A stretch of DNA of 29,712 nt from a virus, in IMG/VR virus record IMGVR_UViG_3300048999_000087, positions 1 through 29,712 of that record; one strand, written 5' to 3'. The position numbers and the translations under genes are program-made. Positions within the stretch are counted from its first letter, which is position 1. Each line of letters begins with the position of its first letter. Below, piece after piece: positions 1,730 to 28,037 of this stretch. The notes under the pieces were generated by a model. The model had not been told where the DNA came from, did no database searches, and worked only from the letters and a program-made list of their open reading frames with translations.

Positions 1730-1744
1730 CAGGAGAGGGCAGCC

Positions 1745-2986: not shown

Positions 2987-2991
2987 GCCCG

Positions 2992-3026: not shown

Positions 3027-3046
3027 TTCGCCCGGGAGGCAACCCA

Positions 3047-4949: not shown

Positions 4950-4975
4950 CCCCTCCGTTTCGTTAGGAGTCACCG

Positions 4976-5644: not shown

Positions 5645-5654
5645 CCCCTGATCC

Positions 5655-5697
5655 GGGCGGGCCGCGCGTCTTCTGGCGGGTCGACGCGCGCCCGTCC
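5655..5697 (+). terminator. Stem-loop after the major tail protein gene
   Basis: Arms 5655-5670 and 5683-5697 pair over 15 positions, with one G-U pair and one bulged C, around a 12-nt loop. The hairpin starts 10 bases after the tail protein stop and has no T-tract. Like the hairpin after the capsid gene, it follows one of the two most abundant virion proteins and may stabilise or attenuate the transcript. Confidence 0.5.
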
Positions 5698-5735
5698 GGC
5701 CTGACCCGCCGTGACCCGCCATCTTGGGAGAGACC

Positions 5736-10240: not shown

Positions 10241-10244
10241 CCCG

Positions 10245-11117
10245 GTGATCACGCTCGACGCGTTCGCGCTCGACGGCTACGACGACGGCACTGTGTCGCT
10301 GACCGTCGCAGAGATCAACTGGTACGACAGCCCCAAGCCGAGGACGTCCTACACGCCGCGCCCGTTCGCCGCCGGGTCCTACTACGCCCCGGCCTGGCAG
10401 GACGCGCGCACCATCGCCATCACCGGGCGACTGTCGGCGACCACCGATGAGGCATTCGCCGCGACCAAACGGCAGCTGGCCGCGCTGTGCCTGGATCCGG
10501 GCGCACTACGCGAGCTGACCGTGACCGACGCGCTGGGCACGCTGTTCTGCCTGGTCCAGCGATCATCCGAGGTGCAATTCAAAGCCCAAGGGGCACGCGC
10601 CGCCGACTTCTCCCTGAGCCTGACCGCGCCCGATCCGCGGCTGCTCTCGGTCGACCTGCAGTCAGTCTCGACGCCGATGGCCCAGTCCGGGCCGGGCGGC
10701 GTCGCTTGGAACGGCCCGGCCGGCGTCACCGGTGTGCGCTGGAACGGGCCAGCGACACCGGCGACCGGCATCGCCTGGGGGACGCCGACCGCGACCGGGA
10801 TCGTGATGCTGGACAACACGGCCGGCACCGCCCCGGCCGACGTCATCGTGACCATCACCGGTCCCGTTCAGCGGCCGGCGCTGCAGGCCGGTGACGGCTG
10901 GATCATCTACGGCGGCGACCTCGCCGCATCCGACGTGCTCACGATCAACACGGGCACCGGTGCGGTCACGCTCAACGGTGCCGGCCGCCGGGCCTACCTG
11001 CTCGCCGCTGACTGGTTCGCCGTGCCGCCCGGCCAGACGCTGGCGCTGCGATTCGTCGGCGCCGTCCAGTCCGCATCCGCCGCACTCACCGCCAGCTGGC
11101 GCACCAGCTACGCATAG
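10245..11117 (+). CDS. Distal tail protein (Dit-like minor tail protein)
   Basis: GTG at 10245, four bases after the tape measure stop, with GAGG just upstream inside the previous gene. The 290-residue protein has an N-terminal domain of about 130 residues with the pattern of phage distal tail proteins (WQDARTIAITGRLSA, a helix ATKRQLAALCLDPGALRELTVTDALGTLFC, then FSLSLTAPDPRLLS). A beta-rich C-terminal domain follows (VIVTITGPVQRPALQAG, GWIIYGGD, TINTGTGAVTLNG). Such proteins form the hexameric hub at the tail end that joins the tube to tip and fibres. The gene order tape measure then Dit is standard. Confidence 0.78.
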   Translation: MITLDAFALDGYDDGTVSLTVAEINWYDSPKPRTSYTPRPFAAGSYYAPAWQDARTIAITGRLSATTDEAFAATKRQLAALCLDPGALRELTVTDALGTLFCLVQRSSEVQFKAQGARAADFSLSLTAPDPRLLSVDLQSVSTPMAQSGPGGVAWNGPAGVTGVRWNGPATPATGIAWGTPTATGIVMLDNTAGTAPADVIVTITGPVQRPALQAGDGWIIYGGDLAASDVLTINTGTGAVTLNGAGRRAYLLAADWFAVPPGQTLALRFVGAVQSASAALTASWRTSYA

Positions 11118-11126
11118 GGAGCACCG

Positions 11127-12233
11127 TTGGCCGTCGCCCTCGCCGATGCCGTCCCGCTGACCGCGGCGGACGGTGTCACCGGTCAGAATTCCGGCCGCGA
11201 CATCCGCAAGTTCCTGGCCAGCCTGCTACTGCCCGACGTCAAGTCGGCAAACCCGCTCGCGGCCCGCAACGGCGTCCTGCCGCACCAGTGGGATAGCAGC
11301 GGGTGCACGTCGCTGCGGGTCCAGCAGCAGACCACAGCGGCGATGGCCGTCGACGTGCTGGCCGGGCCGTACGTGTGTGAGCGCTCGGGCCAGGGCCCGT
11401 ATCTCGGGTGGTCCGAGTCGACGGTGACGGTCAACCCGGCCGCGGCGAACGCGACGAATCCACGCATCGACGTGGTGTTTGCCGTCGTCTATGACCAGGC
11501 GTCGATCAGCAACGACCCGGCGCACGGCGCCATGGTCGACATTCTCACCGGCACGCCGGCCGCGTCGCCGAACGCGCCGACCAACCTGCCCGATGGTGCC
11601 GTTGCCCTGGCACAGGTCCGGGTGCGCGCCGGGACCACCTCGATCGTCGCGTCAGACATCACCGACGTGCGTCCGAGTACGGCACTGACCGGCGGCGTGC
11701 GGCATATGCTGCCCGGCGACGCCCTGGCCTCGCCCGGGCGCATCGACGGCGAGCTGCGCTATCGCACCGCCGTGGCCCCGTATCCGGCGCTGGTCGACTA
11801 CTGGGACAGCTCGCAAAGCCTCTGGCGCGGCACCCAAGGCGCGGTATTCACCGGAGCGTGGCCGGGCACACCGGACAGCAATAGCAACGTCGCGGGCACG
11901 GTCAGTGGCGCGGGAAACACGCTGATCAGCGTCAACGTGCCCGACCCGGGATTTCCGTACCGGCTGTGGGCGAGCACGCTGTTCAAGATCACCAGCATTG
12001 TCAGTCCGACGACGATCAACTACTACGCCTCGGTCAACAACGGCCCGTTCGCGGGGGCGATCGCGACCGCCGGTGCCGGCGGTGACAACCGCTGCGCGGT
12101 GATGCCGATCGGCTCCACTGTCTTCACCGGCGCATCGACGGTGCGGCTGAAAGTCGACGTCCTCGGCGGGGGCTCGGTCGGCTGGGCCGCGGACACCCGC
12201 AATCCCCTGACTGTCGGCCTGACGCCCGCCTGA
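11127..12233 (+). CDS. Minor tail / baseplate protein
   Basis: The likely start is TTG at 11127, preceded by TAGGGAG; no ATG or GTG with a ribosome site fits. The 368-residue protein begins with AVALADAVPLTAADGVTGQNSGRDIRKFL. Its middle, VQQQTTAAMAVDVLAGPYVCERSGQGPYLGW...NPRIDVVFAVVYDQ, is the pattern of actinophage upper baseplate or tip proteins. ALAQVRVRAGTTSIVASDITDVRP, also typical, follows. The C-terminal 120 residues are beta-rich and Gly/Ser/Asn-rich, suitable for a tip or receptor domain. It is close to the distal tail gene and probably part of the same tail-tip complex. Precise role unknown. Confidence 0.72.
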   Translation: MAVALADAVPLTAADGVTGQNSGRDIRKFLASLLLPDVKSANPLAARNGVLPHQWDSSGCTSLRVQQQTTAAMAVDVLAGPYVCERSGQGPYLGWSESTVTVNPAAANATNPRIDVVFAVVYDQASISNDPAHGAMVDILTGTPAASPNAPTNLPDGAVALAQVRVRAGTTSIVASDITDVRPSTALTGGVRHMLPGDALASPGRIDGELRYRTAVAPYPALVDYWDSSQSLWRGTQGAVFTGAWPGTPDSNSNVAGTVSGAGNTLISVNVPDPGFPYRLWASTLFKITSIVSPTTINYYASVNNGPFAGAIATAGAGGDNRCAVMPIGSTVFTGASTVRLKVDVLGGGSVGWAADTRNPLTVGLTPA

Positions 12234-12243
12234 GGAGAACGAC

Positions 12244-12582
12244 GTGGCTTTCACCGTCGCCGTCCGCAACGCCGCGCTGGACAACGTCGGCGCACAGGGA
12301 TCGTGGGTGTCGCTGCATACCGCCGACCCGGGCACCACCGGCGCGAGCGAGGTCACCGGCGGGTCGTATGCCCGCGTGCAGACCACCTGGTCGGCCGCCG
12401 CCAACGGCAGCAAAGCCGGATCACAGGTCACGATCAACGTGCCGTCCGGGGTGACCGTCGCCTACTTCGGCGTGTGGTCGGCGTCCGCGGCCGGCACGTT
12501 CTGCTTCGGCGGCTCCCTGGCCGCGAGTCAGGCTTTCTCGTCCGCCGGCACATACCAGCTCACGGTGACCATCACCGACTAG
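12244..12582 (+). CDS. Small tail fibre-like structural protein
   Basis: GTG at 12244 follows TGAGGAGAAC. The 112-residue protein starts AFTVAVRNAALDNVGAQGSWVSLHTADPGTTGASEVTGGSYARVQTTW. This is the hallmark opening of a short fibre-like family widespread in mycobacteriophages and other actinophages (S-LHTADPG followed by E-TGG-YAR). The remainder is beta-rich (VTVAYFGVWSASAAGTFCFGG...TYQLTVTITD). The role in virions is structural at the tail tip; receptor binding is possible. Its placement between tip proteins agrees. Confidence 0.75.
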   Translation: MAFTVAVRNAALDNVGAQGSWVSLHTADPGTTGASEVTGGSYARVQTTWSAAANGSKAGSQVTINVPSGVTVAYFGVWSASAAGTFCFGGSLAASQAFSSAGTYQLTVTITD

Positions 12583-12586
12583 CGCC

Positions 12587-14044
12587 GTGGCACCCACGTT
12601 CGTCGCGCGCTATGAGAGCGCCTGGAACACGGCGACCTCACCCAAGACGCTCAGTGTCACGGTGGCCGCCGGTGACGTCCTGGTCATCTACGGAATCACC
12701 CAGGACGCCGGCACCACCCTGGCCACGCCGACCGGTGGCGGCCTGACCTACACACAGCGCCAGGTCGTCAGCGCCGCGAGCTACTGCTGGGTTTCGATCT
12801 GGACGGCCAGCGCAGCCTCTGCGCAGACCTTCACCCTCAGCGTGACCGCGGCCGGCAACGGCCTGGATTACGGCGTCTCCTGCTTGCGGTTCTCCGGCGT
12901 GGCCGCGGTCGGCGCCTCGGCGCAAGCGCACGCGGCCGGCGCGGGCTCGGTCGGGCTGACCACCACCGGTGCCGGTAGCGCGATCGTCGCCGCGATCGGC
13001 GACTGGAATGCACTGTCCAACGCCGGCACCTGGCTGGCGATCGACGGCGTCGCCGCCACGCAGCAGACCGGCCTCAACGTCTCCGGCGCCTACACCGTGT
13101 GGGGCGCCTACTGGTCCGGCCTCGGCGCCGCCGGGGCGAAAACCGCCGGGCTGAGCGCGCCGAGTGGGCAGAAATACTCCATCGCTGCCGTCGAGCTGAC
13201 CGCCAGCGCGGGCCCGGCCTACTCCGGCACCGGCAGCGCCGCGCTGACGCTCGGATCGGCCAGCGCCGGCACCCCGCGCCCGGCCGGCACCGCCGCGGCC
13301 GCACTGGGCCTCTCGGCGCCCACAGCGGCCGGCACGCCGCGCGTGACCGGCACGGGCTCCATCCCGCTGCCGCTGGCCGCGGCGGTGACCGGATCACCCA
13401 CCCTCGCCGGCGCCGGCACGGCTGCACTGACGCTGGCCACCGCGGCGGCCACACTGCCGCCCTACGTCGTGGCGCCACCCTCGCCGGCCCTGGCCGGCCG
13501 GACCGGCAGCGCCCGGATCGGCCCGCCGTTTCGGCTGCTACTCGCCGAAACCGTCTCGGGTCAGGTGGTCGCCGACCTGCCGATCGCGGCGCCGCCGAGC
13601 TGGTCGCGGCAGATCAACGGATCCGGGTCGCTGTCGGCAACGGTGGCGCTGGCGCCGCGACTGGACGACGACACCCTGCAGATGCTCCGCGAGCCCTGGC
13701 GCTGGACGCTCGCCTATGCCTACGGCTCGATCATCCTGCAGGCCGGCATGGTCGCGCAGGTCAGCGTCGACGACAGCCAGCAGCCACCGACCGCGGCGAT
13801 CACCACCACGACGCTGTGGGACTACCTCGACAAAAAGGCCCTGGCGATCTACGAGCAGCGCTCGGGCGGGGCCAGCGTGGCCACCGGTGACATCGTGTTC
13901 GGCCCGGCCAGCACCGACCCGGGCAACACGGCGCTGTCCTGGGCCTCGGTCGCCGCCCGGCTGGTCTGGATCTGGTCCTACTACACCGCCGGGGCCTACG
14001 CACCGCCGATCTCGCCTCACTGGGTCAGCGCCTCGCGGACCTGA
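12587..14044 (+). CDS. Minor tail protein, N-terminal part of a frameshifted gene
   Basis: GTG at 12587, four bases after the previous stop, gives 485 residues. Residues 1-205 are a beta-sandwich domain resembling adhesin or carbohydrate-binding folds (FVARYESAWNTATSPKTLSV, ALSNAGTWLAID). Residues about 214-290 are a low-complexity linker of roughly 20-residue repeats beginning GTGSAALTL. From about 305 a typical actinophage tail-tip domain starts (FRLLLAETVSGQVVADLP...GSGSLSATVAL...WRWTLAYAYGS). It breaks off at 14044 with an unlikely tail after YYTAG. The expected continuation is in the next frame back (13996-14661), so the gene appears split by a one-base loss. Confidence 0.75.
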   Translation: MAPTFVARYESAWNTATSPKTLSVTVAAGDVLVIYGITQDAGTTLATPTGGGLTYTQRQVVSAASYCWVSIWTASAASAQTFTLSVTAAGNGLDYGVSCLRFSGVAAVGASAQAHAAGAGSVGLTTTGAGSAIVAAIGDWNALSNAGTWLAIDGVAATQQTGLNVSGAYTVWGAYWSGLGAAGAKTAGLSAPSGQKYSIAAVELTASAGPAYSGTGSAALTLGSASAGTPRPAGTAAAALGLSAPTAAGTPRVTGTGSIPLPLAAAVTGSPTLAGAGTAALTLATAAATLPPYVVAPPSPALAGRTGSARIGPPFRLLLAETVSGQVVADLPIAAPPSWSRQINGSGSLSATVALAPRLDDDTLQMLREPWRWTLAYAYGSIILQAGMVAQVSVDDSQQPPTAAITTTTLWDYLDKKALAIYEQRSGGASVATGDIVFGPASTDPGNTALSWASVAARLVWIWSYYTAGAYAPPISPHWVSASRT

Positions 14045-14661
14045 CCAAGCTCGCCGAGCGGGTCGAGATCGAGTTCAGCCCGGAGTGGGCCGACGACGCG
14101 CACGCCTACCTGCGCTGGCGGATGCGCGCCGTAGACGGCCGGCTCGGGCAGCTGGGCTACCCGCACGCCTGGGACTACGGCCAGGCGTGCACGGCGTTGA
14201 CCGCCACCGTCGACGGCACGGGCATGACATTCGACGTGTTCGCCAAGGGCCAAGACAGCCGCAGCACCAGCGGCGGCGCGCTGGCCTGGTCCAGCGCCTA
14301 TGACGAGACCTACCCGGCCGCCGGCTGGCCCTGGCTGCAGACCGCCGACACGTCGCATTCCAGCGAAACCAGCGTCGACGTGCTGCACGGCTACGCACTC
14401 GGCGAGCTGGACACCAACACGACACCCCGGTTCGGCGGGGCGGCCACCGTCCGCATGGACGGCCGCAGCATCACCGGCGCGGCCACCGGCAGCCCGCCGG
14501 TCGAGGCCGTGCAGGTCGGCGACACCGCCGTGATCCATGTCGCCGGGCACCCGTACCTGACACCCGGGCAATACGCCGTGCGGCTGCTAACCGTCGCCAA
14601 CGGAGCCGACCAGTGGTCCGCGGTCGGCACCGTGCAGATGATCGGACCCGTCACCGCATGA
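13996..14661 (+). CDS. Minor tail protein, C-terminal part in the -1 frame
   Basis: This frame is open well before 13996 and continues to the TGA at 14659. It encodes LRTADLASLGQRLADLTKLAERVEIEFSPEW, then HAWDYGQACTALTATVDGTGMTFDVFAKGQD, a sequence that reads as the natural extension of the tip domain broken at 14044. No ATG or GTG start lies between 13981 and the ATG at 14122, which is inside the conserved part and has no ribosome site. Adding one G to the GGGG at 13991-13994 would join YYTAG to GLRTADLASLG. If there is no error in the sequence, this part is untranslated or needs a recoding event. The stop overlaps the next start (ATGA). Confidence 0.68.
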   Translation, partial: LRTADLASLGQRLADLTKLAERVEIEFSPEWADDAHAYLRWRMRAVDGRLGQLGYPHAWDYGQACTALTATVDGTGMTFDVFAKGQDSRSTSGGALAWSSAYDETYPAAGWPWLQTADTSHSSETSVDVLHGYALGELDTNTTPRFGGAATVRMDGRSITGAATGSPPVEAVQVGDTAVIHVAGHPYLTPGQYAVRLLTVANGADQWSAVGTVQMIGPVTA

Positions 14662-15233
14662 CCTACCCGGACATCCCGGCCGGGCGGGCCCAGGTCCCAC
14701 CGAGCCCGCGGGACGAGATCGCCGCGCTGCGGGCCCGCGTCGATGAGCTGACCCGCGCCGGGCCGCCACCGGTGCCAGCCACCCCCGTGTGCCGCGTGAA
14801 GGCACTCGACGACGTGCCGCTACCGGCCAGCACCGACAACTTCGCCGGCACGCACTGGCAGATCGGCGAGGACCCGGACGGGCTCGCCACCATCGCGACC
14901 GCCAGCGGCACCCAGTCCACGATCACCATCGCCGCGACCGGCCGCTACCTCCTGCAGGTCCGGGCCGTGGTCACTGCGCTGGCCGCCGGGGCCACGTGCG
15001 CGGCGTTTGTCACCCGCGGCGCGGCCACCGCCGGGTCCTCCGTGCTGCGGGACAACCGCAACGTCGCCAACGCCGGAGGTGACGGCACGATCGTGGCCAG
15101 CTCGCGCGGCGTCGTCCTGGCCGCGGGCGACGTCCTGTACTGGGGCAGCTGGGCCTCGGCGGCCTACACCCTCTCGGCCGTCACGCTCGGCGTGCCCAGC
15201 GAGGTCGCCCTGTACTGGCTGGGCACCCGCTGA
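14658..15233 (+). CDS. Tail fibre / receptor-binding candidate with C1q-like beta domain
   Basis: ATG at 14658 overlaps the preceding stop. The 191-residue protein has an N-terminal helix with heptad-like spacing (PRDEIAALRARVDELTRA), a Pro-rich hinge, and a beta domain from about residue 55. There TSTITIAATGRYLLQVRAVV-like strands, AFVTRG and a closing VALYWLGTR resemble the jelly-roll (C1q/TNF-like) heads found on many phage fibres. A short trimeric coiled coil followed by a compact head is a common receptor-binding layout. Assignment is structural inference; the position between tip proteins and lysis genes supports it. Confidence 0.6.
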   Translation: MTYPDIPAGRAQVPPSPRDEIAALRARVDELTRAGPPPVPATPVCRVKALDDVPLPASTDNFAGTHWQIGEDPDGLATIATASGTQSTITIAATGRYLLQVRAVVTALAAGATCAAFVTRGAATAGSSVLRDNRNVANAGGDGTIVASSRGVVLAAGDVLYWGSWASAAYTLSAVTLGVPSEVALYWLGTR

Positions 15234-15652: not shown

Positions 15653-15978
15653 CGCCCGGATGGCTGACCATCGCCCAACTACTGGCCAGTGCCGGCGGCC
15701 TCGGCGGGCTCGCGTCCCTGCTCGCCTTCCGCGGCCAGCGCCGGCAGGTCGCCGCCGACGTCGAGCGATCCGGCGCCGAGGCCGCCCGCAGCCTGTCCGA
15801 GTCCGCCGTGGCCCTGCTCGGGCCGTACCGCCGGCAGGTCTCCGACCTGACCCGCGAGCTAGCCGAAGCCCGCGCCACCGTCGCCGACCTGTCCGGGCAG
15901 CTCACCCTCGCCCGCGGTGAGGTCGAGCGGCTGCGGGCCCAGGTCGCCGACCTGTCCCGAGACCTACCCAGGGAGTGA
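15649..15978 (+). CDS. Membrane-anchored coiled-coil protein in lysis cassette
   Basis: GTG at 15649 overlaps the previous stop (GTGA). The 109-residue protein begins with one hydrophobic helix (LTIAQLLASAGGLGGLASLLAF). A long heptad-patterned helix to the end follows (VAADVERSGAEAARSLSESAVALLG, LTRELAEARATVADLSGQLTLA, VERLRAQVADLSRDL). The arrangement is like small membrane-anchored coiled-coil proteins found beside actinophage endolysins. It could be a spanin-like or holin-regulating factor, but no lipoprotein signal or partner is evident. The end overlaps a potential start of the endolysin gene. Confidence 0.6.
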   Translation: MTPGWLTIAQLLASAGGLGGLASLLAFRGQRRQVAADVERSGAEAARSLSESAVALLGPYRRQVSDLTRELAEARATVADLSGQLTLARGEVERLRAQVADLSRDLPRE

Positions 15979-15983
15979 CCCGC

Positions 15984-17024
15984 GTGCTGTTCGGGATCGA
16001 CGTCAGCGCGTACCAAACCGGCATCGACATGCACGCCGTGGCCGCCGAGGGCTTCACCTTCGCGCTGGTCAAGGCCACCGAGGGCGCCGACTACACCAGC
16101 CCGGCGTTCCTGGACCAGTACAACGCCGCCCGCGACGCCGGGATGATCACGATCGCCTACCACTACCAGCGCGACGGCGACCCGGCCGGCCAGGTCGAGC
16201 GCATCCGGAAGACCGTGCCGGCCGGCGTGCCGGTGGCCATCGACGTCGAGCAGGGCTCCGGCGACCTGACCACCACCCGACCACTGATCGACGGGCTACA
16301 CGCCGCCGGCTACGCCGTGCCGCTGACCTACCTGCCGCAGTGGTACTGGCGCCAGATCGGCGAGCCCGACCTGACCGGCCTGCCGCCGCTGTGGTCCAGC
16401 CGCTACCCCTCGACCCGGCCCGCGCCGGCCTCGGTGCTCTACGGCGACGTGCCGGCCGACTACTGGACCGGCTACGGCGGCCTACCCGTGGCCGTCCTGC
16501 AGTTCGCCGACTCAGCCCAGGTCGCCGGCCACCTACTCGACGCCAGCGCGTTCGGCGGCGAGATCGCCGAGCTGGCCGCCGTGCTCTTCGGCGCACCCGC
16601 ACCCGCACCCGCACCACCGGAGGATGACGACGCCGTGGCAACCGTGATGCTGCCGGCCACACCGGCACCCGCCGAACCGGGCAGCCCGCCCGAGACCTGG
16701 GACCACTGGGACTTCACCATCCCGCTCGCGCCGCCCGGCGGCTGGCACGGCGACGTGATGGCCCATGTCGTCGTCGGGCCGTACTACCCGCACGACGCGA
16801 AGGTCGCCGGGCACGTGCGGTACGCCAACTGGTTCGTCGAGCCCGACCCGGGCGGCGACGACGTCCACCCGGTCGCCGTGGCCGACCACGTTAACGACCT
16901 CGGCGCGCCGATGGTCCGGTTTTGGTCGGCGCACTGGGGCCCGGCGCCGGCCCGGACGTCGGCGCTGGTGCTCAACCTGGCCTGCCCGGGTGGCGCCGCG
17001 GTGACCCTGGAGTACCAGCGGTGA
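15984..17024 (+). CDS. Endolysin, GH25 muramidase with C-terminal extra domain
   Basis: I prefer GTG at 15984, 8 nt after GGGAG; a GTG at 15975 overlapping the previous stop would add three residues. The 346-residue protein starts with a GH25 lysozyme domain (about 1-200): Asp6 in FGIDVSAYQ, ALVKATEGADY, and the DxE motif AIDVEQG with Asp87 and Glu89. A Pro/Ala linker (about 205-240, APAPAPAPP) leads to a 105-residue beta-rich C-terminal domain (WDFTIPLAPPGGWHGDVMAHVVVG...ALVLNLACPGGAAVTLEYQR), which may bind the cell wall. The enzyme cuts peptidoglycan glycan strands. No signal peptide is present, so export should need a holin. Confidence 0.9.
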   Translation: MLFGIDVSAYQTGIDMHAVAAEGFTFALVKATEGADYTSPAFLDQYNAARDAGMITIAYHYQRDGDPAGQVERIRKTVPAGVPVAIDVEQGSGDLTTTRPLIDGLHAAGYAVPLTYLPQWYWRQIGEPDLTGLPPLWSSRYPSTRPAPASVLYGDVPADYWTGYGGLPVAVLQFADSAQVAGHLLDASAFGGEIAELAAVLFGAPAPAPAPPEDDDAVATVMLPATPAPAEPGSPPETWDHWDFTIPLAPPGGWHGDVMAHVVVGPYYPHDAKVAGHVRYANWFVEPDPGGDDVHPVAVADHVNDLGAPMVRFWSAHWGPAPARTSALVLNLACPGGAAVTLEYQR

Positions 17025-17293
17025 CCGGCCGCCCCGAACCTGCGATGGTCACCGGCGCGGTGACGGCCGTCGTGGCCGCTGTGGTGGCCGTGCTGGCCGC
17101 GCTGGGCCTGGCCCTGCCCGATGCCGCCGCGCACGTCGCCGAGGGCCTCACAGCCGTCCTGGCGCCGCTGATCGCGGCCTGGATCACCCGCCGGCAGGTC
17201 ACCCCGACCGCCGACCCGCACGGCGGAGACGGCACGCCGCTGGTGTCCGCGGCGGCGACGGCGCACGATGGCAGCCAATCGCCGGGCACCTGA
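17021..17293 (+). CDS. Holin candidate, two membrane helices
   Basis: GTG at 17021 overlaps the endolysin stop (GTGA). The 90-residue protein has two hydrophobic helices (residues about 9-31 and 35-56) joined by a short turn at PDAAAH. A polar C-terminal tail with basic residues follows the second helix (ITRRQ). This is the usual form of actinophage class II-like holins, and the gene directly follows the endolysin. It is the last gene of the late operon; a strong hairpin follows 22 bases later. Confidence 0.7.
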   Translation: MTGRPEPAMVTGAVTAVVAAVVAVLAALGLALPDAAAHVAEGLTAVLAPLIAAWITRRQVTPTADPHGGDGTPLVSAAATAHDGSQSPGT

Positions 17294-17315
17294 CAGCCGT
17301 CCCCCGGCACAGAAA

Positions 17316-17350
17316 AGCGCCCCGGTCGAGGATCACTCGACCGGGGCGCT
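17316..17350. terminator. Bidirectional terminator between late phage genes and transfer genes
   Basis: Perfect 14-bp arms (17316-17329 and 17337-17350) around a 7-nt loop. Read on the minus strand the hairpin is followed by TTTTCT, a canonical U-tract, so it can end the transfer operon transcript. On the plus strand it would end the late operon without a U-tract, as is common in actinobacteria. It lies 22 bases after the holin stop. Confidence 0.85.
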
Positions 17351-17366
17351 GCTGTGTGTCTGGACC

Positions 17367-17535
17367 GGGGAGGGAGGCACCGGGGGTGGCCCGAAAGGGC
17401 CGCTGAGAGCCCTCCGAGGGCCGCCGGATCGGGTGCTTCCCGCGCCTCCCCGTGACCTGTTTTGCCTGGCCAGCCCGGGGAGGCAGGCCCGGGGAGGCCC
17501 CGGGGAGACCTCCCCGGATTTCCGGGCGCCTCCCC
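17367..17535. repeat. Cluster of GGGGAGG heptamers downstream of the TraB-like gene (clt/TRS-like candidate)
   Basis: Six exact copies of GGGGAGG occur in 169 bp: plus strand at 17367, 17477 and 17491; minus strand (CCTCCCC) at 17445, 17509 and 17529. One variant (GGGGAGA) lies at 17502. The cluster ends 12 bases past the translocase stop. In Streptomyces plasmids TraB binds short plasmid-specific repeats in the clt locus at the 3' end of traB (pSVH1 repeat GACCCGGA). The position fits that role here; the binding is inference. Confidence 0.55.
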
Positions 17536-17547
17536 GGGTCACGACGA

Positions 17548-19782
17548 TCACTCGCCGTCGTCGTCGGCGTCCTCGGCGCGGACCTCATCGGCCCGGTTGG
17601 CGATCGCGACCTGCAGGTCAGCCAGCAGCAGATGCATCTTGCCGCCGTCCCGCTTGCGCGGCGTGACGCCGATGACCCGCAGACCCGCGTTGAGCTGCTT
17701 GGTCGTCCACTCGCCGTAGGTGCCGGCGTGCAGTTCGGCCAGCCGCTTCACGATCGTCTCGGTGCGAACCTGCTGCTCACCGTGCATGACCTCATCGAGG
17801 TCGTCGAGCAGGTCGCGGTCCTCGGGCGCCTCGACGACCGGCGACTGCCGCGCGTCGCGGCCGTGCCGGCGCATGATCTCCACCGAGCGGGCCGCGACCG
17901 CCGTCGACTGATCGTGGTCCACGTAGTGCGTCTTAATGATCACAAACGCTTGACCTGCGGGAATGCCGTCAACCTCGCCGGTTGCCACGACCGTGCCGCG
18001 GTCACGGAACGGCCGCAGGTCCTGCGGACGCGCGCCGCGGTCGACCGTGTCGGCGAGGATCATCCGAGCCGTTGACTCGTTGGGCACGTTCAGCGCCACA
18101 CGCACGTGCGCACCCTCGCGGACCTGCACCGGCAGCGTGCGGTCGTCCGGCCGCTGCGTGGCCTCCAGGAAGTGGATATTCACCGCGCGGGCCTGGTCAT
18201 GCAGCGTCTTGGCATACCGCCATGCCTTGCTCTTGTTGCTGGTGCCGCCGACCGGGGCGGGTGCGCCGTACAGGATCTGGCACTCGTCAACCATGATGTA
18301 GATCGGGTGGAATCCAGACCCCTTTTGCCTGCTCAGGGCACGGTCAAGGCGTAGCCCCTGCTCCGTTTTGACCTCATAGCGGCGACGCATCTCGGTCACG
18401 CCCCAGCCGAGCAGGTCGCAGGTCGCCTCGGCGTGTTCCTCGGCGCCGCCCTCGATCAGCGTCGCCGCCCGGTCGCGGAACATCGACCAGTCACCGTCGC
18501 CCTTGAGGTCGGCGATGTGCAGCTCAACGGTCGGGTCCAGCGCCACGAACAGCGCGACCAGGCGAAACACGGTCGTCTTGCCCTGCTTGCTGGTCGCGCC
18601 GATCAGCCAGTGGCGCTGCAGCATCCCCTGCTCGACCTGCTCGCCGCGCATGGTCACGCCCCACGGAAGGTTGTCCTTCCAGACGTCAACCTCGCCCTCA
18701 GCCAGCAGCGGCCACTCGGGTGCCGGCTGGTCCAGCGCACCCTTGTCTGCCACCCACAGGTCCAGTACGCGGGCGTCGGCCTCCGGATCGCGCTGCGGGT
18801 AGGTCTCGTGCTTGTGCCGGTTCAGGTTGCCGGCCAGTCGCTCGATCACCTCTGGCTTGAGGATGTCGGCCGCCATGATGCCGACAGGCAGCTTGACCTG
18901 CAGATACGTGCCCCCGCCCTGCTCCCGGGGCGGCACGATGAAGTCGAGCAGCTGCCCTTCCTTGGTCAGCTTGCGCGTCAGGTCGGCGATCTTGAGGTTC
19001 ACCAGGGCTTGCGTGACCGCATCCGCCGTGATCGCGACGTCGCCGAAGCGCTTCGCCTCGGGCAGCAGCCACCGCGGCGTGTCCTCGCCCCGGCCGGTCA
19101 GGTAGGCCGCGCCGACCCAACCGAGTGCGGCGGCACCGGCCGTCCACGGGGAAAGCAGCAGGTCAGAGGCCACGTGGCCGCCGCTGATCAGGGCCTGCAG
19201 CACGTGACCGAGGCCGTGATACCAACTGGCGGCCGTCACGCCGTCGACACCCGCGACCACGATCACGACCGGAATCACGACCAGCAGCAGCACGAGCAGC
19301 GCGCCGACCGCGATCACGGTCGCCTTGATCACGGCGAACGTCGACACGGGCAGATCCTTGATCCGCTGGTGACGGGCCATCTGCGCACGCTGCAGCCGCT
19401 CGATCGCGACCGAGTACGCGGCCTGGTCGCCCGAGTGTCGGGCGATCTTGACGGCCTCATGGTGATCCGCCAGCGTCAGCCGGCGGCGTGCCCTCTTTGC
19501 CCAGGTCAGATGCCCCTGAGCGACCACGACCGCGACCCGGATGCCGGTGCGGCTGCCCTCGATCGCCGCGGCCCGCGTCCGCGGCCCGGGGGTCGGCACG
19601 ACGTCGCGCAGTCGGCGCGTGGCCGGCAGCCGCTGGCCGCGGGTGGCCGGCAGGTTGGTCGGCTCGGGCTGGTCGGTGACCAGCTCGCCCTCGACGGTCT
19701 CGGGCGCGGCCTCGACGTCGTGGCCGGGGAGGTAGATCACCTCTGCCGTGTCGTCGTGCTCGGACTCAAATGGCTGTGCCAT
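17548..19782 (-). CDS. FtsK/SpoIIIE-type DNA translocase, TraB-like conjugal transfer protein
   Basis: ATG at 19782 (minus strand) follows AAGGGAG; an open frame continues to 20139 but has no ribosome site and overlaps the upstream gene. The 744-residue protein has an N-terminal charged region, two membrane segments (about 150-178 and 205-229), and a RecA-like motor with Walker A GATSKQGKT (395-403) and Walker B IYIMVDE (494-500). ATQRPDD follows. A C-terminal winged-helix-like region (about 672-730, TETIVKRLAEL...WTTKQLNAGLRVIGV) comes last, then an acidic tail. This is the layout of Streptomyces TraB and AICE Tra proteins, which pump double-stranded DNA between hyphae. A chromosome-segregation FtsK is unlikely given the context and size. 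Confidence 0.85.
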   Translation of the reverse strand: MAQPFESEHDDTAEVIYLPGHDVEAAPETVEGELVTDQPEPTNLPATRGQRLPATRRLRDVVPTPGPRTRAAAIEGSRTGIRVAVVVAQGHLTWAKRARRRLTLADHHEAVKIARHSGDQAAYSVAIERLQRAQMARHQRIKDLPVSTFAVIKATVIAVGALLVLLLVVIPVVIVVAGVDGVTAASWYHGLGHVLQALISGGHVASDLLLSPWTAGAAALGWVGAAYLTGRGEDTPRWLLPEAKRFGDVAITADAVTQALVNLKIADLTRKLTKEGQLLDFIVPPREQGGGTYLQVKLPVGIMAADILKPEVIERLAGNLNRHKHETYPQRDPEADARVLDLWVADKGALDQPAPEWPLLAEGEVDVWKDNLPWGVTMRGEQVEQGMLQRHWLIGATSKQGKTTVFRLVALFVALDPTVELHIADLKGDGDWSMFRDRAATLIEGGAEEHAEATCDLLGWGVTEMRRRYEVKTEQGLRLDRALSRQKGSGFHPIYIMVDECQILYGAPAPVGGTSNKSKAWRYAKTLHDQARAVNIHFLEATQRPDDRTLPVQVREGAHVRVALNVPNESTARMILADTVDRGARPQDLRPFRDRGTVVATGEVDGIPAGQAFVIIKTHYVDHDQSTAVAARSVEIMRRHGRDARQSPVVEAPEDRDLLDDLDEVMHGEQQVRTETIVKRLAELHAGTYGEWTTKQLNAGLRVIGVTPRKRDGGKMHLLLADLQVAIANRADEVRAEDADDDGE

Positions 19783-19879
19783 GGTTGGCGCACTCCCTTG
19801 GTGGAGTAGCCCGGGTGGGCGGCGAGGTCTGGACTCCTTGTGCCGCCCACCCGGTGGCTTACGGGCGGGGTAGTAGGGG

Positions 19880-21091
19880 CTACTGCTCGGCGGATCGGCG
19901 GATCGCCTCGGCGACCCGGTTGGACCGACCGCGGCCGGCGCCGTTGGGCTGGCCAACCGCCGTGAATACCGCGTTGTTGGTCGGGCTAACCGGCAGGTCT
20001 CCGGCGGCGATCGCGTCCCGAACCTTGCTGAACAGATCCAGGTCACCATCCTTGAGCAGCAGGTCAGTGCGGGTGTCGTCAGCCGGTTGGGTATCTGCGG
20101 TAGGCGGTTGGCCACCGGTTGGCCCGGCGGTTGGCGCACCGGTTGGCCGGGCGGTTGGCTTGCGCGCCGCCGGGCGGTTCGCCGAGCCGTTCGGCGAGCG
20201 GTTAGCGCGGCGGTTACCCGACCCGCCGGCCGGCGGTTGGCCGGCGACGTGGCGACCCGGGCCCGCGGCCGGTTGACGGGCCACCGTCGCCTGAGCGTGC
20301 AAGGCGTCGATCCGCCGGTTGTATCGGGCGGCCACGATCGGCAGCACCAGCGCGACGGCGAACGCCGCGGACGGGATCACCATGTCCCGCACGAGCGCGG
20401 ACACGTCCAGCGGCGCCGCCGGCACGCCCGGGCGCCAGCCGGCCGGGTGGCCGGAGAGCACCGGGGCGACGTTCATGCCGAGGACGGCGAACAAGACGCC
20501 AAGCTCAACGATCAACAGGATGGTGTCGCCGCGCTTGTCATCACTGCCGGCCAGGTCGCCACGGGACTTGACCAGGCTCACCACGATCGCCGACAGCAGC
20601 GGGTCGACCAGCCACGCCACCCACCACATGGGCTTGTGCCAGTCGATCGGGCCCGCCACGTACGTCTGCACGTTCACGCAGGTGTAGGCCATGGCGGAGA
20701 TCATCACCGCCCACAGCACCCGGATCAGCCGATCGCGGCGACCGGCCAGCTCAAGTGCCCGCACGGACGGGTCGGCGGCCAGCCGGCGCTTAGCGGCTGC
20801 CGCGTCGGCTTTCGCCTGCAGCTCGGCACGCTCTTTGGCGGCCTCGCCGTCGAGCGTGATCGCATGGAACTGCGCGTCGAGCGCGGTCACCCGCTCGTGC
20901 TCGGTGATCTCCTGCTGCCGCTGCAGTACAGCCTCGCTCGGCAGCTCGCGGATGCGCTGTGCCTCCGCCGCGGCGATCTCCAACTGGCGAACGTCGTCGG
21001 TGTAGCCCGCCAGCTCGGCCTCGGGCGAGAGTGTGGCCGGCAGGATCAGCGCGCCGCGGCGCGTGTAGGACGGCTCAAACAGCGCGGTCAC
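19880..21091 (-). CDS. Spd-like membrane protein (plasmid spread / conjugation)
   Basis: GTG at 21091 on the minus strand overlaps the previous stop and is preceded by AGGGGAG. The 403-residue protein has a long helical, coiled-coil-like N-terminus (about 28-118). Four membrane segments follow (about 123-145, 155-175, 190-212, 237-256), then a Pro/Arg/Thr-rich linker (283-340) coded by a short-period DNA repeat. A C-terminal basic domain closes it (FSKVRDAIAAGDLPVSPTNNAV...GRGRSNRVAEAIRRSAEQ), similar to the ends of Streptomyces SpdB-type proteins. SpdB proteins help intramycelial spread with TraB. Placement directly upstream of the TraB-like gene supports this, though no family is certain. 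Confidence 0.6.
   Translation of the reverse strand: MTALFEPSYTRRGALILPATLSPEAELAGYTDDVRQLEIAAAEAQRIRELPSEAVLQRQQEITEHERVTALDAQFHAITLDGEAAKERAELQAKADAAAAKRRLAADPSVRALELAGRRDRLIRVLWAVMISAMAYTCVNVQTYVAGPIDWHKPMWWVAWLVDPLLSAIVVSLVKSRGDLAGSDDKRGDTILLIVELGVLFAVLGMNVAPVLSGHPAGWRPGVPAAPLDVSALVRDMVIPSAAFAVALVLPIVAARYNRRIDALHAQATVARQPAAGPGRHVAGQPPAGGSGNRRANRSPNGSANRPAARKPTARPTGAPTAGPTGGQPPTADTQPADDTRTDLLLKDGDLDLFSKVRDAIAAGDLPVSPTNNAVFTAVGQPNGAGRGRSNRVAEAIRRSAEQ
20084..20241. repeat. About 12-bp period CGGTTGGC array inside the Spd-like gene
   Basis: Exact CGGTTGGC octamers start at 20105, 20116, 20128, 20140, 20152 and 20234. Near copies lie at 20084 (CGGTTGGG), 20175 (CGGTTCGC), 20199 (CGGTTAGC) and 20211 (CGGTTACC). 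Spacings are 11, 12, 12, 12, 23, 24, 12 and 23 bp, so the DNA period is kept while the coding phase shifts. The core is read as Gln-Pro, Pro-Thr and Asn-Arg in different parts. This looks like an iteron-type array or a repeat expansion at the DNA level. Confidence 0.8.
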
Positions 21092-21324
21092 TGGTCGCTC
21101 CCCTGGTCGGCGGGTCGGATGAAGCGGTTCGCGCTGGCTGGCAGCGGCTGGCCGGCGAGGTAGGCCAGCAGCGCCAGGCCGGCCACCGCGGCGATCTCGG
21201 TCAGCTCAGCGGCGAACGCCGTCAGCCATCGCGGCGCCTGCAGGATGCCAACCAGCACGGCGACAAGGACGAAGACACACGCGAGCGGCAGCGACATGCG
21301 CGCCAGCTGGGCCCGGGCGGTCAC
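21088..21324 (-). CDS. Small two-TM membrane protein of the transfer operon
   Basis: GTG at 21324 overlaps the stop of the preceding gene (GTGA), and its own stop overlaps the next start in the same way. The 78-residue protein has two hydrophobic helices (about residues 11-30 and 40-60: SLPLACVFVLVAVLVGILQ and ELTEIAAVAGLALLAYLAG) and a polar tail. Small membrane proteins of this kind sit beside traB in many Streptomyces plasmids as Spd proteins, and coupling to the next two genes suggests a shared membrane complex. No family motif is visible, so the role is inferred from context. Confidence 0.65.
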   Translation of the reverse strand: MTARAQLARMSLPLACVFVLVAVLVGILQAPRWLTAFAAELTEIAAVAGLALLAYLAGQPLPASANRFIRPADQGSDQ

Positions 21325-21512
21325 TGGGCACCGTCCTGGGCCGGCGCGGAAAGCTCGGGAAACAGGACGTCTTGACCCTCGATCGGGTCATGCAACGACG
21401 ACAGCGGCCGGCGGGCCGCAGCCCGGCCGCGGGTGCGATGCGCACGAGCCACGGCGCGAAGCGGGCTGTCCGCTGGCGACTCCTGCCGCTGGTCAGGCAC
21501 ACTCTTGGGCAT
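21321..21512 (-). CDS. Small basic hydrophilic protein, first gene of the transfer operon
   Basis: I chose the ATG at 21512 because GGGAGG lies 8 nt upstream; the open frame continues to 21599 without a ribosome site. The 63-residue protein has no membrane segment and is rich in Arg, Pro and Ser (AVARAHRTRGRAAARRPLSSL), with an acidic or hydrophobic end (DPIEGQDVLFPELSAPAQDG). I do not recognise it. Being the first gene, it may be regulatory or an accessory of the transfer machinery. Confidence 0.55.
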   Translation of the reverse strand: MPKSVPDQRQESPADSPLRAVARAHRTRGRAAARRPLSSLHDPIEGQDVLFPELSAPAQDGAQ

Positions 21513-21604
21513 CGGGGCTACCTCCCGATCAGGGCCCGGGGCTGTGTCAGCAGCCGCCGGGCCGTTCTCATGACAGCCGCCAGGATGACACGACAGCACG
21601 CCGC

Positions 21605-21642
21605 TTGTCTACTCCTGCACACACGGGGTACTGTCCGGCGCA
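21605..21642 (+). promoter_or_regulatory. Promoter for a leaderless HTH transcript
   Basis: TTGTCT (21605-21610) and TACTGT (21629-21634) are spaced 18 bp and resemble -35/-10 elements. The ATG of the HTH gene is only 7 bases after the -10, and no ribosome site is present, so transcription would begin at or next to the start codon. TGACA words lie just upstream, at about 21570 and 21585, and may be operator half-sites. The minus-strand transfer operon starts 129 bp away, so both directions may be controlled from here. Confidence 0.55.
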
Positions 21643-21959
21643 TGACACAGCTACCCGAGCAACAGCAGCTTGAGATCCTGAAGCGCGGCCAGGCCGAAGG
21701 GCAGACCCGGGTCGACCTGCAGGCCCAACTCGACGCGTGCAACGAGCGGCTTCGGCTGCTCGTGATGGAGGCACTCGACGCCGGGATCAAGACCGAGCGA
21801 ATCGTGGACGTGTTCCAGATCGCGCGCCGGACGCTGTATGCCTGGAAAGACCGGCGAGACGCGACCGAGCAGCAGACCGATGTGGCCCATTCGGCCGACA
21901 CGCCGCAGAAGGTCACCCGTGCCCGAGGCCGATCGCGGCACGCTCCCCCTCAGACGTGA
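21642..21959 (+). CDS. Small HTH DNA-binding regulator
   Basis: ATG at 21642 begins a 105-residue protein. Residues 1-40 are a Gln/Glu-rich helical stretch. Residues about 40-72 read as a helix-turn-helix (LVMEALDAGIKTERIVDVFQIARRTLYAWKDRRD), with RRTLYAWK like the recognition helix of MerR- or transposase-type HTHs. The remainder is polar and basic. It stands divergent to the transfer operon and upstream of the replication genes, closed off by its own terminator, so it is the best candidate here for a transfer or copy-control regulator. No ligand domain is present. The lack of a leader fits the promoter position. Confidence 0.72.
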   Translation: MTQLPEQQQLEILKRGQAEGQTRVDLQAQLDACNERLRLLVMEALDAGIKTERIVDVFQIARRTLYAWKDRRDATEQQTDVAHSADTPQKVTRARGRSRHAPPQT

Positions 21960-21992
21960 CAAGGGGCCCAGCCCGACCAGCTGGACCCCTTG
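21960..21992 (+). terminator. Hairpin terminator after the HTH gene
   Basis: Arms of 13 bp (21960-21972 and 21980-21992) pair with a single C-A mismatch around a 7-nt loop. The hairpin starts right after the HTH stop. There is no long T-run, only TTG. It separates the regulator transcript from the replication genes. Confidence 0.7.
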
Positions 21993-22047
21993 ACGCCTAG
22001 ACCGCCCGCTCCTGCCACGGACACCCGGGCGGCACCGCTTGAGCGTA

Positions 22048-22114
22048 GCGGAACGCGAACCGCGTCCGCAGCGCCTCCCGCGCGTGTCGTGCCCGGTGGG
22101 AAGGACTCCCCACC
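22048..22114 (+). promoter_or_regulatory. Leader hairpins and structured ribosome site before the primase gene
   Basis: A hairpin at 22048-22069 pairs GCGGA-CGCG with CGCG-TCCGC. A second one places GGTGGG (22095-22100) against CCCACC (22109-22114), just before the ATG at 22115. The likely Shine-Dalgarno (GGGAAGG, 22098-22104) is partly in this stem and partly in its loop. Access to the start may thus depend on structure. The two hairpins are visible; the control is inference. Confidence 0.4.
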
Positions 22115-23194
22115 ATGCGAGCCGACCACTGTCACATCGCCCGCGAGGTCTCGCCGGCCGCAGCGTCCGCGTTGTGGCTGGTCACGCACCGGCGCTGGTA
22201 TCTCGTGCCGCTGCAGGACGGCGGCAAATTCCCCCGCGGCGGGTGCCAGGCGTGCAAGCCCGGCCGCGCCGACCATGTCGCCGCCGAGTGCCCGTGCCTG
22301 GCCGCCGACCCGGTATCGCTGTGCCACGGGATCTACGCCGCCAGCAACGACCCGACCGTGACCCGGTTTCGGGCCGCGCTGTACCCGCACGCGAGTTGGG
22401 CCGTGCACTGCGGCGCCTCGGGCCTGCTCGGTGTGGACATCGACTGCAAGCCCGGGCTGATCGCGCCCGAGCAGCCGCTGCCCGGGCGGGAGTGGACGGC
22501 CGCGCTGGCGCCGACCAGCGGCGTCGACTGCTTCGGCCAGCTGGCACCCGAGGCCCAGCAGGCGATCGCCGAGCGGGACACGCTGACTGTCCAGACACCC
22601 TCGGGCGGGCTACACCTGATCTACGCCGCCGAGGCCGGCCGGTGGAAAACCAGCAGCGGCCGGGTCCGCACGGACGGCCAGATGGCCGCCGGGGCCCTGG
22701 CCTGGCAAGTCGACGTCAAGGCCCGGGGCGGCTACCTGCTCATCCCGGGCAGTGCGACCGCGGCCGGCACCTACCGGCGGATCAGCGCCGGCCACGACCC
22801 GGCACCACTGCCCGCATGGCTGGCCGGCGAGCTACGCCGCACCGGCCACGACGCGACCGACCAGCCGCAGCGCACGACCACGATCACCCGGCCGGCCGCC
22901 GCATCCCGGGCCCTGGCCGCAGCCGAAGACCGCAACCAGCGCTACGCCGCCGCGGCACTGGAGTCGGCGTGCGCCGAGCTGGCCGGGATGGAACCCAACA
23001 GCGGCCGCAACCGGAAGCTGTACCGATCAGCCTCGCGGCTGGCCGGCATGGCCGACGCCGGCTGGATCGACCGCGGCGAGGTCGAGGCCGCCCTGGCCGA
23101 CGCCGCGCGACAGGCCCGACTACCCGCCGGGGAAATCAGCTACGCGATCGCCTCAGGCTTCCGGTCGCCGCGACGGGTGGACGGTGCGCGATGA
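22115..23194 (+). CDS. Bifunctional primase-polymerase (prim-pol, AEP superfamily)
   Basis: The 359-residue protein has the archaeo-eukaryotic primase core of plasmid and phage prim-pols. Asp108 and Asp110 in GLLGVDIDCK are the metal-binding DxD. His167 in VQTPSGGLHLIY is the nucleotide-binding motif, followed by DVKARGGYLLIPGSATAAGTYR. A Cys-rich insert near the N-terminus (Cys44, Cys47, Cys59, Cys61) may bind zinc. The C-terminal 90 residues form a helical domain (AAEDRNQRYAAAALESACAELAGM...) common in actinobacterial prim-pols. It would synthesise primers, and perhaps DNA, for element replication. Its stop overlaps the helicase start, so the two are probably made together. Confidence 0.88.
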   Translation: MRADHCHIAREVSPAAASALWLVTHRRWYLVPLQDGGKFPRGGCQACKPGRADHVAAECPCLAADPVSLCHGIYAASNDPTVTRFRAALYPHASWAVHCGASGLLGVDIDCKPGLIAPEQPLPGREWTAALAPTSGVDCFGQLAPEAQQAIAERDTLTVQTPSGGLHLIYAAEAGRWKTSSGRVRTDGQMAAGALAWQVDVKARGGYLLIPGSATAAGTYRRISAGHDPAPLPAWLAGELRRTGHDATDQPQRTTTITRPAAASRALAAAEDRNQRYAAAALESACAELAGMEPNSGRNRKLYRSASRLAGMADAGWIDRGEVEAALADAARQARLPAGEISYAIASGFRSPRRVDGAR

Positions 23195-24939
23195 GCGAAA
23201 ACGTGATCCCGCTGCGCACCGAGGCCGACACGGTCGCCGGGCTGCAGGCAACGGCCCGCGCGCAAGGCGCCGACTCCCGAGCCGCCGAGATCATCGCCGA
23301 CCACGTCGTGCGCGGCCGTTTTCGCTGGACGCCGGCACTGGGCTGGCTGCAGTGGGATGGCTGCCGCTGGTCGATCGACGAAGCCGCCGAGGCCGCGCTG
23401 ATCGAGGCCGTACGGCAGTTCGCCGACGACACCGAGCGGGACTACCGTGCACGCGCCGGATCGGCGCAGCTGCGCGAGTCCGCCCTGATCGACACCGTGC
23501 GGGCGCGGGCCGGCCTCGACCCGCTGGCTGTGCTCGACCGAAAAGAGGTCGAACGGCTGATCGAGAACAAGGGCACCCCGGACGAGCGCAAGACCTGGCA
23601 GCAGATCACGCGGGACCTGACCGAGGCGCGCACGCAAGCCGACATCTGGCTGAACCTGCTCAACGTCAAGAAGCTGCAGGCCGTCGTGACGCTGTGCCGT
23701 GGCATGGACGGCGTACGGACCCGCACGACCGATCTGGACGCTCACCCGGACCTGCTCAACGTCCGAAACGGTGTCGTTGACCTGCGGACCGGTGAGCTGA
23801 GACCGAGCGACCCTGATCTACTCATGACGCGGGTGGCGGGCGTCGACTACATACCCAGCATGAGGGCGCCGCGGTGGACGAAGGCGCTTGAGGCCGTGCA
23901 TCCCGGCTGTCTGGAATGGTTCCAGCTCAAGATCGGGCAGTCCGCCACGGGCTATACGCCGACCGACGACACCATGGTGATCAGCCACGGGGGTGGCGAG
24001 AACGGCAAAACGGCCGTCATGACGGCGATTCGCCGCGCTCTCGGCGACTACGCCCGCACGATCTCCCACCGCGTGCTGATCGCTCAGCCCGGACAGCACC
24101 CCACCGAGCTGATGGACCTTCGCGGGTGCCGGCTCGCGCTGCTTGAGGAGACCCCCGAAGAGGGTCGCCTCGACACGCACCGGATCAAGGAGACCGTTGG
24201 CACGCCCGAGATCGAGGCTCGGCGGATGCGGCGCGACCCGGTGACCTTCACGACCAGCCATACGCTGTGGGTCAACACGAACTTTCGCCCGCAGGTTGAC
24301 TCAACCGACCATGGCACCTGGCGACGGCTACAGGAAATGCCCTGGCCGTTCACGTTCGTCAAGCCTGGCCGGCCGCTGACCACCGACGCGCACCGGGCCG
24401 GCGATCCGAGGCTCAAGCCGGCTTGTGAGCGTGACCCGCGCATCTGGCAAGCCGCACTCTCGTGGATCGTCGAGGGCGCGGTCGCATGGTTCGCCGGTGG
24501 CGAGGTCGGGTCAGACGCCCCGGCGCCGGTCGTCGAGGCCACGGCTGAATGGCGCTCAAGCACTGACGTTGGGTTCCAATTCGCCGCCGAGCAGCTGGTC
24601 GCCGACCCGGCGGCGTTCATCACAGCCGAGGTCATGCGTCGGGAGTTTTCCGCGTTCCTGGCCGCGCAGGGCAAGCGCGACTGGTCAGCGCAGACGCTGA
24701 ACACGCGGCTACCCGCATCACTGGCCGCTGCCGGCATCGTGGTCAGCGCGGTGCCGACGAAGCCAGCGAAGATCCGCCAGGGCGATACCGAATCGCGGCC
24801 GGCCGGTCGCGACGAACACTGGATCGAGGCCGACTATCCAGCGCCGGTCGGCAACGCGCCAGGCAAGCTGCAGCGCATATGGCGCGGCGTGCGATTCAAA
24901 ACAGCCACCGAGGCAGCCAGTCACCTCCGGCTGGTCTGA
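23191..24939 (+). CDS. SF3 replicative helicase (phage/plasmid primase D5/P4-like C-terminal type)
   Basis: ATG at 23191 overlaps the prim-pol stop (ATGA); the open frame runs further upstream but overlaps prim-pol and is not coding. The 582-residue protein has an N-terminal D5N-like helical domain (about 60-225, DLDAHPDLLNVRNGVVDLRTGEL). An SF3 AAA+ motor follows: Walker A GGGENGKT (267-274), Walker B-type LALLEE (315-320) and a motif C with LWVNTNFRP (359-367). The C-terminus (about 450-582) includes a winged-helix-like region. It would unwind the origin and work with prim-pol. Such pairs drive replication of actinobacterial phages, plasmids and AICEs. Confidence 0.9.
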   Translation: MSENVIPLRTEADTVAGLQATARAQGADSRAAEIIADHVVRGRFRWTPALGWLQWDGCRWSIDEAAEAALIEAVRQFADDTERDYRARAGSAQLRESALIDTVRARAGLDPLAVLDRKEVERLIENKGTPDERKTWQQITRDLTEARTQADIWLNLLNVKKLQAVVTLCRGMDGVRTRTTDLDAHPDLLNVRNGVVDLRTGELRPSDPDLLMTRVAGVDYIPSMRAPRWTKALEAVHPGCLEWFQLKIGQSATGYTPTDDTMVISHGGGENGKTAVMTAIRRALGDYARTISHRVLIAQPGQHPTELMDLRGCRLALLEETPEEGRLDTHRIKETVGTPEIEARRMRRDPVTFTTSHTLWVNTNFRPQVDSTDHGTWRRLQEMPWPFTFVKPGRPLTTDAHRAGDPRLKPACERDPRIWQAALSWIVEGAVAWFAGGEVGSDAPAPVVEATAEWRSSTDVGFQFAAEQLVADPAAFITAEVMRREFSAFLAAQGKRDWSAQTLNTRLPASLAAAGIVVSAVPTKPAKIRQGDTESRPAGRDEHWIEADYPAPVGNAPGKLQRIWRGVRFKTATEAASHLRLV

Positions 24940-27867: not shown

Positions 27868-28037
27868 AGGACCCGTGCCATCAGGTCGCCTGCCCGAGCT
27901 GCGGCCGCCCGCATATCCAGGTGGTCAAGCGCACCGGCTGCCTGGTGTTTCACTACGACCGCCGCGACAAGCACCTGCGGCAGCCGTGCCCGGGTAGCGG
28001 CACCCGATACGAACCCAGGAGCGCGATCATGCCGTGA
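27864..28037 (+). CDS. Very small zinc-ribbon-like protein
   Basis: GTG at 27864 overlaps the previous stop, and the TGA at 28035-28037 overlaps the exonuclease GTG. The 57-residue product has Cys5, His6, Cys10 and Cys13 (CPSCGRPH), His17, Cys26, His30 and Cys42. The paired Cys and His motifs suggest one zinc site. It is tightly coupled to the exonuclease gene on its 3' side. Function is unknown; the coupling hints at a DNA-related role. Confidence 0.62.
   Translation: MKDPCHQVACPSCGRPHIQVVKRTGCLVFHYDRRDKHLRQPCPGSGTRYEPRSAIMP

Follow-up and report, generated by a model that had tools for sequence, protein, structure and literature searches.

A TraB-type DNA transfer module in a siphovirus genome fragment and its recurrence in complete phage genomes

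Introduction

Phages and conjugative elements are normally placed in separate categories. The locus described here has features of both: a TraB-like gene lies beside the lysis genes of a phage. We analysed a stretch of 29,712 bases, hereafter the window. It is the whole of the IMG/VR record IMGVR_UViG_3300048999_000087, yet only part of a phage genome: the terminase, the N-terminus of the portal and any integrase lie outside of it. The original prediction, made from the sequence alone, saw here a Streptomyces-type conjugation gene set joined to a siphovirus late region. We consider it likely that the window derives from a temperate siphovirus, infecting a mycelial actinomycete, that has acquired a module for transfer of double-stranded DNA of the type found in plasmids and in actinomycete integrative and conjugative elements (AICEs).

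Phage gene content of the window

A siphovirus head-tail module occupied positions 3-15233 of the plus strand. It comprised the C-terminal part of the portal at the left end of the window, a head protease (767-1729), the major capsid protein (1745-2986), head-tail connectors and a tail terminator, the major tail protein (4976-5644), a tape measure protein of 1268 amino acids (6434-10240) and minor tail proteins. The gene at 14613-15233 remained without annotation. Residues 709-1229 of the tape measure protein also matched PHROGs named endolysin, and this protein may contain a murein hydrolase domain. The lysis genes, also on the plus strand, were a GH25 endolysin, recognized by a profile match (15975-17024), and a holin-like protein with a transmembrane (TM) segment (17045-17293). 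The window thus had the HK97-type head, connectors, major tail protein, tape measure and lysis genes of a siphovirus, with the terminase beyond the fragment.

The right part of the window carried a possible regulatory gene and genes for replication, on the plus strand. A helix-turn-helix (HTH) protein of the HTH_23 type (21642-21959), divergent from the tra operon, is a possible regulator. It was followed by a bifunctional primase/polymerase (PrimPol, PF09250; 22115-23194) and a D5-type primase-helicase (PF08706, TIGR01613; 23191-24939). Small genes separated the latter from the region 28034-29712, open at the right end, which encoded a phage exonuclease and a RecT-like annealing protein. No integrase, partition gene (ParAB) or replication origin was found within the window.

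The tra operon and its membrane proteins

Between the lysis cassette on its left and the HTH, PrimPol, D5 helicase, exonuclease and RecT genes on its right, we found an operon of four minus-strand genes (17548-21512), with the location, extent and gene number that had been predicted. The first gene encoded a small protein of 63 amino acids (21321-21512), the second a protein of 78 amino acids with two hydrophobic segments (21088-21324), in agreement with the predicted two-TM protein. The third encoded a protein of 403 amino acids (P0002; 19880-21091), with a charged helical N-terminal part and four hydrophobic segments. The last was traB (17548-19782), encoding a double-stranded DNA translocase of the FtsK/SpoIIIE family with 744 amino acids (P0001). 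Adjacent reading frames overlapped by 4 nt, except for 97 nt between the 403-aa gene and traB. All four showed a codon-position GC bias, the signal being weakest for the 63-aa frame. The operon was directed away from the late genes and had no transcript in common with them.

The operon layout resembled that of the conjugative Streptomyces plasmid pSVH1, in which a small protein, a TM protein, a membrane protein of ~400 aa and TraB are also followed by repeats (8-bp in pSVH1) directly behind traB. The pSVH1 proteins preceding TraB have 89, 79, 409 (SpdB2) and 108 aa, and the 403-aa protein of the window corresponds to SpdB2 in size and place. Unlike the window, pSVH1 has another repeat sequence, a remote TraB and no phage genes. 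Its replication protein, a rolling-circle Rep, differs as well.

The 403-aa protein had been described as a four-TM, Spd-like protein. The four segments were confirmed, the Spd identity was not. P0002 had no match in Pfam, PHROG or NCBIfam, no relatives of it were found in IMG/VR, and a profile comparison with DUF2637 proteins gave a probability of 0.2%. Agreement with Spd/DUF2637 proteins was limited to the four TM segments and the position in the operon. Since neither identity is confirmed by the sequence, we infer the label Spd-like from architecture and position only. Weak tblastn matches of P0002 on other plasmids were to proteins beside conjugation genes: on pLS2-2 to a gene adjoining a type IV coupling protein, on a Nocardia plasmid to a gene close to mobilisation genes, and on pRL1 to a gene located three genes upstream of one for a 667-aa protein with weak similarity to FtsK. 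Within the 403-aa gene, CGGTTGGC occurred at least six times (20105-20241), encoding a low-complexity stretch rich in Pro, Gly, Thr and Ala.

Domains of the TraB translocase

P0001 had N-terminal TM segments, at about residues 141-188, and a motor with both Walker motifs. Walker A (A-TSKQ-GKT) fitted the pattern [AG]x4GK[ST], not its strict G form, and Walker B was IYIMVDE. In family searches P0001 matched PHROG 1358 (FtsK/SpoIIIE-like; E 5e-21) and had no match in Pfam, where PF01580 was not reached, or in NCBIfam. PF01580 was reached by the TraB of locus L002, the closest phage relative of P0001 (54% TraB identity). Among solved structures, Foldseek placed TcpA first, an FtsK-like coupling protein from the conjugative plasmid pCW3, and FtsK motor domains next (E 1e-9 to 1e-6). 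By sequence, TcpA and, weakly, FtsK were the sole solved structures matching P0001.

The full-length AlphaFold model of P0001 was poor (mean pLDDT 54), and therefore only a model of the C-terminal domain and the Foldseek ranking were used. The C-terminal 95 residues were modelled as a winged helix with a mean pLDDT of 85. The matches of this domain in the PDB were weak, none under E 0.001, and many were winged-helix proteins. With the TM segments, the Walker motifs and this predicted winged helix, P0001 agreed with the FtsK/TraB-like translocase that had been proposed. P0001 thus combined the traits of a TraB-type translocase: the motor with Walker A/B, the N-terminal TM segments, a grouping with TraB proteins and a repeat cluster at the gene (sequence only for the last), the latter two being described below.

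Searches with P0001 against 50,697 phage records gave no match at E <= 1e-5, and likewise none was obtained with a second phage-borne TraB as query. These records thus contain no phage isolated as virions that has precisely this gene set.

A clt-like repeat cluster behind traB

In Streptomyces plasmids the clt site lies in or adjoining tra and is bound by TraA/TraB via a winged helix (PMC3583192). As plasmid TraB selects DNA via such repeats, we scanned the region behind the window traB. Directly behind its stop codon there was a cluster of inverted and direct repeats on both strands (CCGGGGAGG / [AG]GGGAGGC; 17365-17538). A long, terminator-like inverted repeat (17303-17363), situated where the lysis and traB transcripts converge, closed the repeat region. 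The motif CTCCCCG had seven copies (both strands) in the 320 nt behind traB, compared with at most five in 100 shuffles, and the 9-mer CCTCCCCGG had five copies compared with at most three. When the whole 29.7 kb were scanned, the five [AG]GGGAGGC sites of the window were all found at most 248 nt from the traB stop. As a positive control, the same scan detected the published GACCCGGA motif cluster behind the traB of pSVH1, in the same place.

Repeats were more strongly clustered behind traB at 119 loci (mean z 2.74) than in 283 control regions following other genes (mean z 0.68; Mann-Whitney p 3e-25), with the statistics based on first-order shuffles and the loci being partly related. The [AG]GGGAGGC motif recurred with a similar layout in AICEs of Kibdelosporangium, Prauserella and Actinophytocola, all Pseudonocardiales, in one Streptomyces plasmid and in several prophages. 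The arrays were similar in strand order and spacing: a forward copy near 0-15, a reverse copy near 35-65, a forward copy near 80-100 and a reverse copy near 150-170. L002 and the P. broussonetiae element described below had repeat clusters of different sequence behind traB. No repeat cluster was found in the region behind the traB of pPaSha2, so the link between TraB and repeats is not universal.

The repeats at 17365-17538 look like a candidate DNA address tag of TraB, and this clt-like cluster makes the conjugation reading stronger. Other repeats were seen along the way. Another putative recognition repeat, CGAAACCG, was common to a large set of prophage loci with TraB (L109-L150), typically in three copies and mostly ~250 nt behind traB. 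Repeats of 8-10 bp also clustered at places away from traB (L002:3500-3937, L003:21025-21204, L006:17148-17405, L039:11439-11649 and L044:16866-17019). Several of these clusters stood directly behind a replication gene, and they are probably replication iterons.

In the mechanism that we propose, TraB would form a hexameric membrane channel like that of FtsK. By recognizing the clt repeats behind its own gene, the C-terminal winged helix of TraB would pick the circular DNA of the phage, which the motor would pump as unprocessed double strands through a septum or a hyphal contact. The small membrane proteins encoded with TraB would then aid the spread of the DNA along the recipient mycelium. 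Expression would be expected in the lysogenic or episomal state. The phage may thereby spread both by virions and by cell-to-cell DNA transfer.

Spd proteins of Streptomyces plasmids act in intramycelial spread. With an operon laid out like that of pSVH1 and a membrane protein of SpdB2 size, the module might serve this purpose only. TraB and the membrane proteins would then pass the DNA of an infecting or induced phage through the septa of one mycelium, and more compartments would produce virions or become lysogenic, with no transfer between mycelia. The phage records without a P0001 match, many of them from phages of unicellular mycobacteria, agree with such a role. We find it rather unlikely, however, because clt and TraB are the very parts required for intermycelial transfer in plasmids and because the module is common to self-transmissible AICEs. 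In addition, the 403-aa protein is not proven to be Spd, and the orientation of the operon separates it from late transcription.

Phylogeny and selection

A placement of the translocase with chromosomal FtsK/SpoIIIE would have spoken against the original prediction, but the trees gave the opposite result. In a first tree of 30 rows, including chromosomal FtsK and EccC proteins of four actinomycete genomes, P0001 fell in a clade of eight rows (100/99) with L002 and the TraB proteins of AICE-like loci. The chromosomal FtsK proteins of the same bacterial group formed a separate clade (100/100). A tree of 92 rows agreed, with P0001 nested among AICE and plasmid TraB proteins. A chromosomal FtsK or EccC origin of P0001 was ruled out by the tree. 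For the Streptomyces-type conjugation gene set as a whole, the TraB phylogeny and the clt-like cluster, the latter absent from the original prediction, spoke in favor, and the Spd label was the part that the sequence did not support.

FtsK-like translocases are found in other phages, and PHROG 1358 is named FtsK/SpoIIIE-like, which would suit a housekeeping protein that aids the resolution, segregation or packaging of phage DNA, without a role in transfer. P0001 matched such phage-type FtsK proteins only weakly and only in the motor, and we rejected it as one of them. Its N-terminal TM segments, TraB-type C-terminus, TraB phylogeny and clt-like cluster all argue against housekeeping, the phage has its own head and tail set, and its relatives encode their own terminase. 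We regard this role as very unlikely.

The TraB copies on phages remained intact. Between close pairs of phage-borne TraB genes, changes per codon position were 0.07/0.05/0.21, and this excess at the third position indicates selection to keep the protein. These values replaced a Nei-Gojobori dN/dS over all TraB pairs, which we discarded: with synonymous sites saturated, as they are in this GC-rich DNA, it has no meaning.

Recurrence in other phages and exchange of modules

When the operon type was sought in relatives, TraB modules were found in complete circular phage genomes and in many prophages. With an alignment as query, TraB relatives were found at 79 IMG/VR loci, L002 among them. Of the 46 TraB-bearing IMG/VR records tested, 30 had a capsid of the HK97 type (PF05065), a portal (PF04860) or both above the cut-off. 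Several records were complete siphovirus prophages sharing one gene order: integrase, PrimPol, rep, DUF2637-like membrane protein, TraB, terminase, portal, protease, capsid, tape measure and lysis genes.

The closest phage relative (IMGVR_UViG_3300009545_000016; locus L002, genome G001) was circular, with a 123-bp end overlap and a portal frame continuous across the ends. Its tra operon, like that of the window, lay between the late genes and the integrase/replication genes, and was read in the direction opposite to that of the late genes. It differed from the window by its 8-bp repeat (TGCTCCG), a serine integrase and its own late genes.

Two complete circular records filed as Pseudonocardia plasmids, pPaSha2 (CP052773.1, L044) and P. 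broussonetiae unnamed3 (plasmid 3; NZ_CP053567.1, L045; 27.4 kb), were phage genomes, with terminase, portal, protease, capsid and integrase genes plus DUF2637 and TraB. Integrases were also present in other relatives. Both records shared with the window the virion genes, a long tape-measure-sized gene and TraB, but their TraB belonged to another subclade and a DUF2637 protein replaced the 403-aa protein. The C-terminal parts of these two TraB proteins (L044:4807-6855 and L045:16990-19230) weakly matched DUF3631, a domain of AICE replication initiators (RepAM).

In Pseudonocardiales genomes, HMMs found head genes around TraB in 0 of 40 neighbourhoods, although divergent heads may escape the HMMs, and AICEs are therefore the usual home of TraB there. 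An accidental origin, by insertion of an AICE in or beside a prophage or by chimeric assembly, would fit these phage-free AICEs and the AICE-like contiguity of the tra and rep modules (17548-24939), but is highly improbable. The same arrangement was seen in a circular genome from a metagenome, in both complete circular plasmid records and, with a single gene order, in many prophages; no integrase or xis adjoins the window tra operon, and the reading frames are intact.

At least 10 changes between phages and AICEs/plasmids were required by the 92-row TraB tree. Among prophage pairs with TraB >75% identical, the portals were <40% identical in 189 of 235, and the reverse pattern was found in 27 pairs, which shows that tra and head modules were freely exchanged. 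Across the IMG/VR loci L076-L153 there were near-identical TraB modules with unrelated heads, and near-identical heads with unrelated TraB, a pattern of module exchange in which an AICE-like chassis is combined with different virion modules.

Comparison with known systems

AICEs of the pSAM2 type (PMC3218068) resemble the window in having a TraB of the same clade, PrimPol and a replication protein, small TM proteins and clt-like repeats behind traB. They have no virion genes, whereas a full set for head, tail and lysis is present in the window, along with RecT and an exonuclease. Of the AICE components integrase, Rep/PrimPol and Tra, the window has PrimPol and Tra, and an integrase was not recognized in this fragment.

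The Streptomyces plasmid-phage pZL12 (phage ZL12, GQ919031) was, by the title of its original study as cited in PMC3583192 and PMC4487206, reported to combine conjugal transfer with a lytic cycle. Like the window, it has phage genes and an FtsK-like transfer protein; it differs by its size of 90 kb and by ParAB. Its FtsK-like protein pZL12.71c was not detectably related to the window TraB, and we rejected pZL12 as a homologous precedent. It is a precedent for the combination of phage and transfer, with an unrelated-looking translocase. No description of TraB-bearing siphoviruses was found in the openly licensed papers that were searched.

Significance

Complete siphovirus genomes were repeatedly found to carry a compact transfer module of the AICE type together with its cis site, and this module seems to have moved many times between AICEs and phages. 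Tentatively, the window may represent a widespread class of actinobacterial siphoviruses that spread both in virions and through TraB/clt conjugation of double-stranded DNA. These would consist of an AICE-like chassis (integrase, PrimPol/Rep, TraB, clt) and interchangeable head-tail modules, so that AICEs and phages of mycelial actinomycetes would form one continuum. Since complete elements are present in two culturable strains, the question of dual transfer is directly testable. For TraB of the pSVH1 type, binding to clt-like sites in the chromosome of the host has also been reported (PMC3218068), and host genes might therefore move as well. If the module is functional, such phages could spread through a mycelial host without lysing it, and chromosomal DNA would have two routes of transfer.
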